Positions 4,643 to 46,627 of a stretch of DNA of 64,000 nt are shown here, piece by piece (the stretch's first letter is position 1; each line of letters begins with the position of its first letter). This DNA is from an uncultured Prevotellaceae bacterium (GTDB lineage Bacteria; Bacteroidota; Bacteroidia; Bacteroidales; Bacteroidaceae), in NCBI GenBank assembly GCA_900318115.1, contig ONJJ01000003.1:78538-142537 (forward strand). The letters run 5' to 3'. The position numbers and the translations under genes are program-made. The notes under the pieces are model-generated. The model had not been told where the DNA came from and made no database searches. It worked only from the letters and a program-made list of their open reading frames with translations.

Positions 4643-6004
4643 ATGAAAATAGCAGTCGCCGGAACAGGCTACGTAGGACTAAGCATCGCCACCCTCCTGG
4701 CTCAGCACCAGCAAGTAGTGGCCGTGGACATCGTACCCGAAAAAGTAGAGAAGATCAACCGGAAGGAATCTCCCATACAGGATGATTACATCGAGAAATA
4801 TCTTGCCGAGAAAGACCTGCACCTAATGGCCACCCTCGACGGCCCCTCTGCCTACCGCGATGCCGATTTCGTCGTCATCGCAGCCCCCACCAACTACGAC
4901 CCTGTCAAGAACTTCTTCGACACCTCCCACGTCGAAGAAGTCATCAGTCTCGTCCTCCAGGTGAACCCCGCTGCCGTCATGGTCATCAAGTCCACCGTCC
5001 CCGTCGGCTACACCCGCGGCCTTCAAGACAAGTTCCCCTCCGGCCGGTTCCTCTTCAGCCCCGAGTTCCTGCGCGAGAGCAAGGCCCTGTACGACAACCT
5101 CTATCCCTCCCGCATCATCGTCGGCTTCGACAGCCCCGCCCTCGAACCCTCCGCCCACCTCTTCGCCTCTCTCCTCCTCGAAGGCGCCATCGGTCCACAA
5201 GGGTCTGACGGTAAAACAGAGAACCCGAATCAACCTACCGCGCAATGCGCCTGCCATCTCCCATCCATGACAGGAGGGGACGGGGCTGAGTCTGCAGGAG
5301 AGGGGCATATCCCCACTCTCTTCATGGGCACCACAGAGGCCGAGGCCGTGAAACTCTTTGCCAACACCTACCTCGCACTCCGCGTATCCTATTTCAATGA
5401 GCTCGACACCTACGCCGAACTCAAGGGACTCGACACCCGCGCCATCATTGAAGGCGTAGGCCTCGATCCTCGCATCGGCACACACTACAACAACCCCTCC
5501 TTCGGCTACGGCGGCTACTGCCTGCCGAAGGACACCAAGCAACTCCTGGCCAACTTCAACGACGTCCCCGAGAACCTCATCAAGGCCATCGTCGATTCCA
5601 ACCGCACCCGCAAGGACTTCATTGCCGACCAGGTCCTACGCATGGCTGGCTACTATTCCTACACCGAGAGAAATCAGTACGACCCCCAGCTCACCACCCT
5701 CAATCCCAAGCTCTCCATCCCCCCCGTCATCGGAGTCTATCGCCTGACGATGAAGTCCAACTCCGACAACTTCCGTCAGTCCGCCATCCAGGGCATCATG
5801 AAGCGCATCAAAGCCAAGGGCGCCACCGTCATCATCTACGAGCCCACCCTCCCGGACGGCACCACTTTCTTCGGCAGTCTCGTCGTCAATGACCTCGCCA
5901 CCTTCAAGTCCCGCTCCCGCGCCATCATCGCCAACCGCTACGATCCCCTCCTCGACGACGTCGCCTCCAAAGTCTATACCCGCGACATCTTCCGCCGGGA
6001 TTGA
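4643..6004 (+). CDS. ugd: UDP-glucose 6-dehydrogenase with a 39-residue insert
   Basis: It oxidises UDP-glucose to UDP-glucuronate with two NAD molecules, supplying acidic sugars for capsule and other glycans. The NAD-binding motif GTGYVGLS starts at residue 7, the central helix region carries [20 protein letters not shown], and the catalytic cysteine lies in GGYCLPKD. At 453 residues it is longer than the roughly 390-420 residues I expect for this branch. Most of the excess is a Gly/Pro/Ser-rich segment at residues 184-222 (5192-5308), between LLLEGAI and IPTLFMG, where relatives have only about three residues. A shorter expansion follows YYSYTE. The reading frame and all active-site motifs are intact, so the enzyme is probably active. 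Confidence 0.9.
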
Positions 6005-6876: not shown

Positions 6877-8160
6877 ATGAAAGTTTTACACGTATTAGTC
6901 AGTTCAGAGATAAAGGAACAAGTGGGCATCCTCCAGCGTGACCTGCAGGCAGGTGACGTGCTCGTGGTCTCCCCCGACAAGGAGCTGTCGGCCCAGTTCA
7001 AGGCAATCCTCGACAAGCAGCTGGTGGAGAAGACCGACGCGCGGCAGGAGCTCGACGCCCTGTCTGTGAAGCTGAAGGCGATGTGCGGCAGCGAAGCGTT
7101 CCACAAGGACGTGGACCGCATTCTCGAGCGCGTGTACGCCGTGCTGTGTCAAGGTATGTCGCTGAGCTACCAGAACGACAGCCTGCAGACGTACCTGAAC
7201 GCCTACCTGGTGCAGGTGTGCAGTCTCTGTGTGGCCAGCCTGCTCGGGCAGGGAAAGGTGGTGGACAGCCGCGACCTCATCATCTGCGAAAGCAACAACG
7301 GCATCTCCGTGGTGGACTGGAAACTGACAGAGCAGAACATACAGGGCCTGAAGAAGGACGAGGTCGTGGTCGTGGGCGGTGCCTACGGGCGCAGGCTCAC
7401 GGGCGAAATCTCGGAGCTGGGTAAGCACAGTTCGGAGCTGACGGCAAACATCATCGCTTCAGTGCTGAAAGCCGACGCGGTGCGATTCTACGTCGCCGGC
7501 GCAGGAGCCGAGCAGACTCACCTGAGCTACGAAGAGGCCGCACAGTGCTTCTCCGGCGGATTCCCCGTGTACCCTCCCGCCATGATTCCGGCGCGCAATG
7601 CCGGGGTGCCCATCGAGGTGGCAGGGCTGGATCAGGACGGCAAGGTCGTCGTGACCATCGCCGAGGTGCACGACTCCGAGGTGACGAAGGGCATCTCCGG
7701 CGTCTTCGTCTCTGAACCTATGAGCCTGGTGACCATCTATGGTACTGGGCTGCTGGGCAGCGTGGGCATCTCCTCCATCATCTTCGACCTGCTGGCCAAG
7801 AACGGCATCAATATCCATTTCATCTCGCAGTCGCTGTCGGAGTACAGCATCAGCTTCGCCGTCAAACGCGTGAAGGCCGAGCTGGCCGAGGGGCTGCTGA
7901 AGGTGCTGGTGGCCGACAAGAAGCAGTCGCAGATCAGCGACCTATCGTTCACCATCCGTCCCGTGGCCATCGTGTCGGTCTATGGCCAGGGCATCAAGAA
8001 CCTGCCCGGCATCTCCGGCAAGGTCTATACGGCTCTTGGCAACGAGGGCATCAATGTCATCGCAGCCTCGCAGGGCGGTGAGGAACTGAGTATCTCCATC
8101 GTCATCGCCGAGGAGAATGTGGACAAGGCCAAGGTGGCCCTGAACGCCCTGAAGGGCTAA
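6877..8160 (+). CDS. Aspartokinase-like protein lacking catalytic motifs, with two ACT domains
   Basis: This 427-residue protein aligns by eye along its whole length with the aspartokinase part of ThrA. The kinase-like domain (about 1-280) keeps the frame of the fold, for example TGEISELG, LTANIIASVLKAD, LSYEEAAQ, VYPPAMIPARNAGVPI. The hallmarks are gone: KFGGTS is replaced by LHVLVS at residues 4-9, the GR-G-GSD motif by GKHSSE at 182-187, and the WTDVDG motif by FYVAGAG, with the following DPR segment deleted. The ACT pair (about 284-427) is well kept (SQSLSEYSISFAV, ASQGGEELSISIV). It therefore looks like a pseudokinase that retains an amino-acid sensor. It heads an operon with purU. Annotation pipelines would call it aspartate kinase; activity is doubtful. 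Confidence 0.8.
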   Translation: MKVLHVLVSSEIKEQVGILQRDLQAGDVLVVSPDKELSAQFKAILDKQLVEKTDARQELDALSVKLKAMCGSEAFHKDVDRILERVYAVLCQGMSLSYQNDSLQTYLNAYLVQVCSLCVASLLGQGKVVDSRDLIICESNNGISVVDWKLTEQNIQGLKKDEVVVVGGAYGRRLTGEISELGKHSSELTANIIASVLKADAVRFYVAGAGAEQTHLSYEEAAQCFSGGFPVYPPAMIPARNAGVPIEVAGLDQDGKVVVTIAEVHDSEVTKGISGVFVSEPMSLVTIYGTGLLGSVGISSIIFDLLAKNGINIHFISQSLSEYSISFAVKRVKAELAEGLLKVLVADKKQSQISDLSFTIRPVAIVSVYGQGIKNLPGISGKVYTALGNEGINVIAASQGGEELSISIVIAEENVDKAKVALNALKG

Positions 8161-8192
8161 CCCGGCAGGTGCCCAAAACAGGACAGACACCG

Positions 8193-9056
8193 ATGGACAC
8201 AACAGCAATACTTCTTCTGCACTGTCCCGACCGGCAAGGTATCATCTCCGAAGTGACGAAGTTCATCACCGACAACCAGGGGAACATCGTTTACCTGGAC
8301 CAGTACGTGGACAAGTGCGAGGGGATGTTCTTCATGCGCATAGAGTGGGAGCTGCGCGACTTCCTCGTCCCCCGCGAGAAAATCAAGGAATACGTGGAGA
8401 CGCTGTATGCGCAGCGCTACCAGATGGAGTTCAGCCTCTACTTCAGCGACCAGCGGCCGCGCATGGCCATCTTCGTATCGAAGATGAGCCATTGCCTTTA
8501 CGACCTGCTGGCGCGCTGGAAGACGGGCGAATTCGGGTGCGACATCCCGTGCATCGTCTCCAACCACGAGGACCTGCGCTACGTGGCCGACCAGTTCGGA
8601 ATACCGTTCCACGTCTGGAGCATCGCCAAGGACCACTCCAACAAGGCCGAGGTCGAGGCGGCGGAACTGGAATTGCTGCACCGCGAGAACGTCACCTTCA
8701 TCGTGCTGGCACGCTACATGCAGATCATATCCGACGACATGATTGCGGAGTATCCGCACCACATTATTAATATACATCACTCCTTCCTGCCCGCATTCAT
8801 CGGCGCCAAGCCCTATCACCAGGCCTTCGAGCGAGGGGTGAAGATTATCGGAGCCACCAGCCACTACGTGACGGCCGACCTCGATGCAGGGCCGATCATC
8901 GAGCAGGACGTGGTGCGCATCTCTCACAAGGACACGCCCGAGAGCCTGGTGCTCAAGGGCAAGGACCTGGAGAAGATTGTGCTTTCCAGGGCCGTGGCCA
9001 AGCACATCGAGCGTAAGGTGCTGACGTACAAGAACAAAACCATCATTTTCTCCTGA
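8193..9056 (+). CDS. purU: Formyltetrahydrofolate deformylase
   Basis: PurU hydrolyses 10-formyl-THF to formate and THF, balancing one-carbon pools and supplying formate for PurT. The 287-residue protein has an N-terminal ACT domain (about 1-80, starting TTAILLLHCPDRQGIISEV) and a C-terminal formyltransferase fold. The active-site segment INIHHSFLPAF and the catalytic Asp in TADLDAGPIIEQD are both present. I chose the ATG at 8193 over a GTG at 8169 because family members begin just before the ILL-CPD segment. It follows the aspartokinase-like gene by 32 nt and precedes the YjbH-like gene by 21 nt, so the genes are probably co-transcribed. Confidence 0.93.
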   Translation: MDTTAILLLHCPDRQGIISEVTKFITDNQGNIVYLDQYVDKCEGMFFMRIEWELRDFLVPREKIKEYVETLYAQRYQMEFSLYFSDQRPRMAIFVSKMSHCLYDLLARWKTGEFGCDIPCIVSNHEDLRYVADQFGIPFHVWSIAKDHSNKAEVEAAELELLHRENVTFIVLARYMQIISDDMIAEYPHHIINIHHSFLPAFIGAKPYHQAFERGVKIIGATSHYVTADLDAGPIIEQDVVRISHKDTPESLVLKGKDLEKIVLSRAVAKHIERKVLTYKNKTIIFS

Positions 9057-9077: not shown

Positions 9078-9827
9078 ATGATATCCAGACATCGTTTGAC
9101 AATCGCCTTGCTGTGGGCTGCCACGACCTTCGGCAGCAGCCTGCAGGCACAGGAATACCACGGCACGACAGGCCTGATGCAAGTGCCCACAGCCGAAATG
9201 GATTCGGCAGGTACGTTCCGCGGCGGTGCCGTGTTCCTGCACCAGGCTTTCCTGCCGACGCAGATGCGCAGGAAGAACACCTTCGGCTACACCGTGGGCC
9301 TGACGGCTTTCCGATGGCTGGAACTATCCTACTCATGCTCCATGCTCTATATGCACAAAGGCGGCGATCCCCAAGCGGAAATGGGCTATTACAACGAAGA
9401 CAGGCACCTGAACGTGAAGGTGATGCCGCTGTACGAGGGACGCTGGTGGCCGTCGCTGGCCGTGGGAATGGACGATGTGGGACGCTTCGAACGCATCTCG
9501 ACGGGCGTGAACGGTAACAACTACTTCCAGAACATTTACGCCATGGCCTCCAAGCACTTTGACCTCAAGGGCTACGAGCTCGGAGCTCACATAGGCTACC
9601 GCTACTATACCTCCAACGCCAACAGCGACCGACGCGGTGTGGCCGGCGGCATCTCGCTGCGCCCAGCCTTCTACCGTCCACTGCGCATCATGGGCGAGTG
9701 GGACGGAATAGGGGTGAACGTGGGAGCCGACGTCCTGCTGTGGCGCCACTTGTTCGTCCACGCCGTGCTGGTCCACGGCCGCGGATTCACGGGCGGACTG
9801 AGCTACCACTATCGCCTGAAATACTGA
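9078..9827 (+). CDS. YjbH-like outer membrane beta-barrel protein
   Basis: This 249-residue protein has a signal peptide ending in LQAQ, and then GTTGLMQVPTAEMDSAGTF, which resembles the start of YjbH-type exopolysaccharide export proteins (a Gly-Leu-x-x-x-Pro-[TS]-Ala signature). The rest is a series of amphipathic strands rich in Tyr, Gly and Trp and ends in an aromatic strand (LSYHYRLKY), as expected of a small outer-membrane barrel. Its place directly before GDP-L-fucose synthase suggests a link to fucose-containing surface polysaccharide, but that is inference. It could also be a generic barrel of unknown role. Confidence 0.55.
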   Translation: MISRHRLTIALLWAATTFGSSLQAQEYHGTTGLMQVPTAEMDSAGTFRGGAVFLHQAFLPTQMRRKNTFGYTVGLTAFRWLELSYSCSMLYMHKGGDPQAEMGYYNEDRHLNVKVMPLYEGRWWPSLAVGMDDVGRFERISTGVNGNNYFQNIYAMASKHFDLKGYELGAHIGYRYYTSNANSDRRGVAGGISLRPAFYRPLRIMGEWDGIGVNVGADVLLWRHLFVHAVLVHGRGFTGGLSYHYRLKY

Positions 9828-10994: not shown

Positions 10995-11068
10995 TGATTC
11001 CGTTGGGATTCGAACCCAAGACCCACAGCTTAGAAGGCTGTTGCTCTATCCAGCTGAGCTACGGAACC
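10995..11068 (-). tRNA. tRNA-Arg (anticodon TCT)
   Basis: On the minus strand the acceptor stem GGTTCCG pairs with CGGAATC. The D-loop (AGCTCAGCTGGATAGAGC), the anticodon stem-loop ACAGC-CTTCTAA-GCTGT and the T-loop (GGTTCGAATCC) are all standard. The anticodon is TCT, reading AGA/AGG. It is 74 nt, and the 3' CCA is not encoded. Confidence 0.95.
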
Positions 11069-46369: not shown

Positions 46370-46627
46370 AGAAAAAGAGAGGAACATGCCTCTTCCACTC
46401 TTCAAAACGCGATCATTGACACCTTACCAAATAGCTTAGGCCGCATCGGTTCGATCGGGAGACTCATCAATAACATCAGAAAACCGAGAACGTTCTGCAT
46501 TCCAATGGCGGGCTGCGCCCCTCACGGGGTAACCTCTCTCACGGGAGGCCGGCAGATTACAAAGGGTGCAGGCACTCAAATCATTCATACTCGGAGTTCT
46601 CATCACATCATCGGTGCGGCTTTTTTT
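46370..46627 (+). ncRNA. Candidate structured small RNA (rod-like, possibly 6S-like)
   Basis: Transcription from the 46358 box would run to the T-tract at 46620-46627. The segment 46440-46620 folds by eye into a long rod: GCCGCATCG (from 46441) with CGGTGCGGC next to the T-tract; GAGACTC with GAGTTCTC; CCGAG with CTCGG; CTGCA with TGCAG. It is topped by two small hairpins, CCCC-TCAC-GGGG and CCTCT-CTCAC-GGGAGG. Unpaired A/T-rich strands in the middle form an open bubble. This overall shape and length resemble 6S RNA, but I recognise no diagnostic sequence. A 17-codon ORF (46387-46440-ish) precedes the rod and may be chance. Confidence 0.45.

Follow-up and report, generated by a model that had tools for sequence, protein, structure and literature searches.

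In aspartokinases, the lysine of the KFGGTS motif is catalytic and the TADPR motif forms the nucleotide loop, while glutamines in the ACT domains, of the kind discussed below, take part in threonine binding in a plant aspartokinase. The aspartokinase beta subunit is encoded within the aspartokinase gene itself, where it begins at an internal start, and its chains consist of the ACT pair only (178 residues in 2DTJ and about 150 in 2ZHO). An aspartokinase-derived putative subunit is also found in the Pyrococcus aspartate kinase pair (TIGR02078). More generally, a dead enzyme that has turned regulator is a known kind of thing: HisZ, whose fold and pathway are unrelated to those of the protein described here, is the dead paralogue of an enzyme. 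HisZ is described as the regulatory protein of HisG_S, enhancing catalysis by the other protein and mediating feedback inhibition (PMC9734150), and we draw on it for a works-like comparison only.

The gene studied here lies in a 64,000-nucleotide stretch of DNA that was analysed as a whole and is referred to as the window. We use AKL as a name for short, dead aspartokinase homologues of the type of this window gene. A first-pass annotation had placed the open reading frame at 6877-8160, with 427 codons; this placement is correct, and the frame starts with ATG. The features of the locus are as follows:

6877..8160, + strand: AKL, a pseudo-aspartokinase of 427 aa with a dead amino-acid-kinase domain and tandem ACT domains (open reading frame, Pfam, NCBIfam, profile and alignment)
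6877..7626, + strand: remnant kinase domain, about residues 1-250 (dN/dS and motif alignment)
7690..8157, + strand: the two ACT domains in tandem (approximately residues 272-427), which include QSLSEYSIS and QGGEELSIS (Pfam, alignment and fold search)
8161..8192, no strand: 32-nt gap between AKL and purU, which lie on the same strand (27 nt in L104)
8193..9056, + strand: purU, encoding formyltetrahydrofolate deformylase, which carries an ACT domain of its own at the N-terminus (TIGR00655, 382.5 bits, cut-off 285.95)

The closest NCBIfam family of the window AKL is the ThrA-type NF006959 (PRK09436), which is matched by all ten AKL proteins found and to which the window protein scores 174 bits against a cut-off of 726; to TIGR00657 it scores 120.3 bits, under the cut-off of 208.7. 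In Pfam, its AA_kinase match reaches 23.8 bits against a cut-off of 24.9 and covers residues 109-248 only, and the two ACT domains that had been proposed are both recovered (PF22468, 3e-31, in two stretches). A profile of the ten AKL matches the solved aspartokinase 2HMF over profile positions 22-421 (6.6e-45), and the original description of the protein as ThrA-like over its full length is thus fair for the kinase and ACT part. It does not extend to the homoserine dehydrogenase half, which is absent: the ten open frames measure 427-460 aa and stop after the second ACT domain, with no fused homoserine dehydrogenase. In essence, AKL shares with ThrA the order of kinase and two ACT domains and the ACT glutamines, but is without the homoserine dehydrogenase, the catalytic lysine and the TADPR loop. 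It resembles the aspartokinase beta subunit in holding a non-catalytic aspartokinase ACT pair, and differs from it in keeping a dead kinase domain of about 250 residues that is under selection, and in having its own locus. Two of the ten AKL also match the Pyrococcus pair family, the best at 1e-12, whereas the window AKL scores 16.2 bits against that family's cut-off of 242.4. Among the open-access papers listed, titles and abstract openings held no account of an inactive aspartokinase acting as a regulator at its own locus with neighbours such as those described below, which is a weak negative.

Searches with the window protein covered 295 genomes of the order, 101 of the genus and 399 of the family (30 genera), and searches with the ten-row profile covered 395 genomes of the phylum together with all available genomes of three genera. 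The ten AKL proteins belong to three genera of one Bacteroidales family: the window's genus (3 of 139 genomes), g189 (both genomes) and g211 (5 of 19 genomes). L039 (uncultured Bacteroidales bacterium, RUG11694) was taken as the same sequence as L104 (G337) and not as an eleventh AKL, since both contigs measure 10,435 bases. With the window protein as query, and among the matches listed, the nine other AKL reach 194-772 bits, compared with 144 for the highest-scoring ThrA, so that further AKL of this depth would top a score-sorted list. Below the AKL, long ThrA-type frames of about 700-900 aa make up most of the matches listed; some frames of ~460-480 aa, taken as listed, also occur there, with scores that are ThrA-like or lower. 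No close relative with intact motifs was found, the best non-AKL matches listed being long ThrA-type frames at <=38% identity. In a quick tree, the AKL form a single branch apart from 101 ThrA kinase domains (SH-aLRT 100), and the point at which they left the ThrA tree is unsure, as they sit on a very long stem and the tree carries a long-branch warning. The AKL of L096 (G321, a genome of the window's genus) shares 69-70% identity with three g211 copies and 35% with the window AKL; the L096 PurU is 98% identical to the PurU of G537, a genome of the same genus in which the search of the window's genus found no AKL. From these identities, we infer between-genus transfer of AKL as the simplest reading. 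AKL was not found in 136 of the 139 genomes of the window's genus and is therefore dispensable.

The motif losses that had been read from the window protein are present as described, with LHVLVS at residues 4-9, GKHSSE at 182-187, and FYVAGAG at 204-210 with a deletion after it. They recur across the relatives, as no usable site is left in any of the ten AKL in the alignment. The KFGGTS lysine occurs in none of the ten, where the column is S or H throughout; the TADPR loop falls in a gap in every AKL, its A and D being kept in 101/101 aligned ThrA; and the GRGGSD aspartate is present in 1/10 AKL against 101/101 ThrA. The 101 ThrA rows were picked by the pattern FGG[TS]S, which builds in their KFGG and dropped out locus L064. 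Without this selection, KFGG[TS]S is found in 101 of 102 ThrA loci (the exception is L064), the GRGGSD pattern in 99 of 102, and the TADP pattern in all 102, the last count being partly built in, as TADP is one of two frame-choice routes.

The ACT pair is conserved, as had been proposed, with Q318 and Q399 invariant in 10/10 AKL and 101/101 ThrA in the alignment and with AKL-specific changes around them. Residues fixed in AKL near these glutamines are Y323 (mostly N in ThrA), E402 (mostly S) and S405 (always N); they fit a predicted sensor that was kept with a changed pocket, and do not tell its ligand. A structure model of AKL built from a two-row alignment was weak (mean pLDDT 57.6) and served for the fold search only. 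The first match was the threonine-sensitive aspartokinase of Methanococcus jannaschii, and the best PDB matches of the weak model were threonine-sensitive aspartokinases. Its ACT part fits 6mx1 at a target TM of 0.85, while the leading whole-chain matches have an rmsd near 12, with a good fit for the ACT part only. Placing the AKL-specific residues on a structure was abandoned, the model being too poor at this mean pLDDT.

There is good support for AKL being non-catalytic, under selection and equipped with ACT domains. A role as sensor and regulatory subunit is what we infer as the natural reading, and AKL is probably a pseudo-aspartokinase that acts as an ACT sensor and regulatory subunit; it most likely regulates threonine or one-carbon metabolism, rather than being an enzyme or a decaying gene. 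In the mechanism we propose, a ThrA-type aspartokinase without its homoserine dehydrogenase half, ATP loop and catalytic lysine would have been retained as a non-catalytic regulator. The ACT pair would dimerise and bind an amino acid; threonine is the likeliest, given that the closest sensors of solved structure respond to it. The remodelled kinase domain would provide a contact surface, and ligand binding would then make a partner enzyme more or less active, in the way that HisZ acts on HisG. Either PurU, the likely operon mate, or the cell's real ThrA/LysC would be that partner, and we give the two about equal weight. If true, AKL would clearly exemplify an enzyme that has become a stand-alone amino-acid sensor, conserved in three genera, with the AKL neighbours as a genetic hint at the controlled target. 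One genus has genomes with and without AKL and offers a natural comparison. As a caution, 'aspartate kinase' annotations in these bacteria may cover non-enzymes.

The linkage to purU that the first-pass annotation had pointed out is present in the window, where purU follows AKL after 32 nt and its product starts with an ACT domain (PF01842, residues 6-48). Across relatives the linkage stood in part. It recurs in six of the seven AKL genomes in which purU was found, in both gene orders (AKL before purU in G000, G337 and G321; purU before AKL in G533, G561 and G506), but it is not universal. In G424 purU is present and distant from AKL, and no purU was found in G421, G600 and G399, where the AKL frame is intact and the assemblies are 91, 87 and 83% complete; a strict AKL-PurU pair as a universal rule is ruled out by these three genomes. 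The purU search covered 40 genomes, a hand-chosen and non-random set in which g211 was represented by 11 of its 19 genomes. Among the 30 tested genomes without AKL, purU occurs in 11, its neighbours being hisH/hisA-like in some and other genes elsewhere (by eye). The presence of purU alone is not significantly associated with AKL (7/10 AKL genomes vs 11/30 others, p 0.14); within g211, purU is found only beside AKL (3/5 AKL genomes vs 0/6 others tested, p 0.06). On a PurU tree, the AKL-linked copies need three changes, a number as low being reached in 20 of 500 shuffles (17 of 18 rows, L151 dropped), and these changes may reflect three arrivals, or one with losses. The sequence TAnnTTTG, a promoter consensus of Bacteroidales, is present upstream of AKL in L096 and upstream of purU in L099; a scan of the DNA preceding AKL in the window and in L104 did not find it. 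At Rfam gathering thresholds, no RNA element lies near AKL; the window holds four matches, the nearest a tRNA at 10995, and another a Bacteroidales-1 (suggested 6S) RNA at 46439-46627 (131.6 bits). The gene after purU, at 9078-9827, has a match to YjbH (exopolysaccharide) over residues 25-179 against positions 2-134 of the 658-position profile, and a gene like it occupies the same place in L039 and L104.

A second neighbourhood involves the threonine genes. The gene order in G321 (L096) is AKL-purU-thrB-thrC, a context that points at least as much to threonine synthesis, and the order in G402 is thrA-thrB-thrC (thrA and thrC named by eye). In a hand-chosen, non-random set of 46 genomes, with 17 of the 19 from g211 among them, matches to thrB above the TIGR00191 cut-off are present in 8/10 AKL genomes vs 3/36 others (Fisher p 2e-5), and within g211 in 5/5 AKL genomes vs 2/12 others (Fisher p 0.003); below-cut-off matches in G401 and G415 were left out of these counts. 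Both the thrB and the purU associations are confounded by kinship and genome choice, and their p values ignore kinship. Neither the window genome (G000) nor G337 has a thrB match, which rules out thrB as a universal AKL partner. As these two genomes are without a thrB match and three others without a purU match, neither gene is found in all ten AKL genomes. G533 (L176, L179) and G477 (L181, L182) each have two thrB matches, each beside a thrC-like gene (by eye), which could reflect duplication or assembly contamination. A further aspartokinase match is present in all ten AKL genomes, with places listed for seven (frames of 810-887 aa) and with ThrA motifs read as intact in three (G000, G321 and G533). 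The window genome encodes both ThrA (859-aa frame), with its own ACT pair and its motifs kept, and LysC (452-aa frame), whose translation shows KFGGTS and GGSD.

It is possible that AKL is a regulatory subunit of PurU, where the ACT pair would sense threonine (or methionine, glycine or serine) and tune the release of formate from 10-formyl-tetrahydrofolate. The adjacency in six of seven genomes with two gene orders, the restriction of purU to the side of AKL in g211, and the three changes on the PurU tree all point this way; intact AKL frames in three genomes with no purU found, the 11 of 30 tested genomes that carry purU without AKL, and the ACT domain that PurU already has of its own argue against it. 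The more specific proposal that a dead aspartokinase serves as a separate allosteric subunit, coupling threonine status to formyl-folate hydrolysis by PurU, we consider rather doubtful. In the open-access literature, the search returned nothing on PurU with an ACT domain; among the papers listed, titles and abstract openings held no PurU link of this kind with methionine or glycine, and no description of a control link between the aspartate family and one-carbon metabolism via PurU. Alternatively, AKL could tentatively be seen as a prozyme-like partner of the catalytic ThrA/LysC, forming mixed oligomers via the ACT domains. AKL is a ThrA-type paralogue that coexists with another aspartokinase match in every one of the ten genomes, it stands in L096 at the head of a thrB-thrC order where G402 has thrA, and it is associated with thrB. 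Yet the stretches obtained around nine AKL genes (L096-L104) contain no thrA, the ThrA of the window genome retains its own ACT pair and motifs, thrB has no match in that genome, and most genomes of the window's genus have no AKL found.

The readings in which AKL is not a regulator can be weighed against the rates of substitution. In a simple Nei-Gojobori estimate, dN/dS is 0.080 between the window AKL and its 86% orthologue, and 0.088, 0.054, 0.043 and 0.055 in four other close pairs; two of these five pairs have a dS close to 1 or higher. For the distant pair W-L097 the ratio is 0.246, and dS is saturated in two further AKL pairs. The earlier statement that AKL is not decaying holds, because dN/dS in the five closest pairs is 0.04-0.09, far from a value near 1, and neutral decay is ruled out by these ratios. 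A decaying duplicate kept by chance would be consistent with the patchy spread over the three genera and with the faster change of AKL than of PurU in the window pair (dN 0.082 vs 0.032), but the low ratios, the intact frames of all ten AKL and the motifs common to members at 31-43% identity make it very improbable. By part, dN/dS in the window pair is 0.13 for residues 1-125, 0.04 for 126-260 and 0.06 for the ACT region, and the kinase domain is thus itself under purifying selection. It also holds residues that are invariant among AKL but missing from ThrA or seldom seen there: K52, C137, W148 and Y170 are not among the commonest ThrA letters at those columns, while Y106 and R172 occur in 7/101 and 5/101 ThrA, respectively. 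Both observations could suggest that AKL keeps or has gained another catalytic activity in the remodelled kinase domain. However, these residues may equally be structural, and the loss of the catalytic lysine and nucleotide loop in all ten AKL renders such an activity improbable.

Unusual stretches were also seen in other genes. On contig C56 of G000, after thrA (L105:6563-8563), the gene for 2,3-bisphosphoglycerate-independent phosphoglycerate mutase carries long inserts rich in Ser and Pro, in which a peptide like CRLGAARIRADI appears three times. When up to 3 mismatches are allowed, the DNA underlying this peptide is found 7 times in the genome, against 0 in the reversed control; a small mobile repeat with in-frame insertion is one possible explanation. 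In the window, the UDP-glucose/GDP-mannose dehydrogenase at 4643-6004 has an odd stretch at about residues 180-225, between the NAD-binding and central domains, and Ser-rich stretches were noted by eye in two further genes, one hisI-like (L106) and the other DNA-ligase-like (L039).
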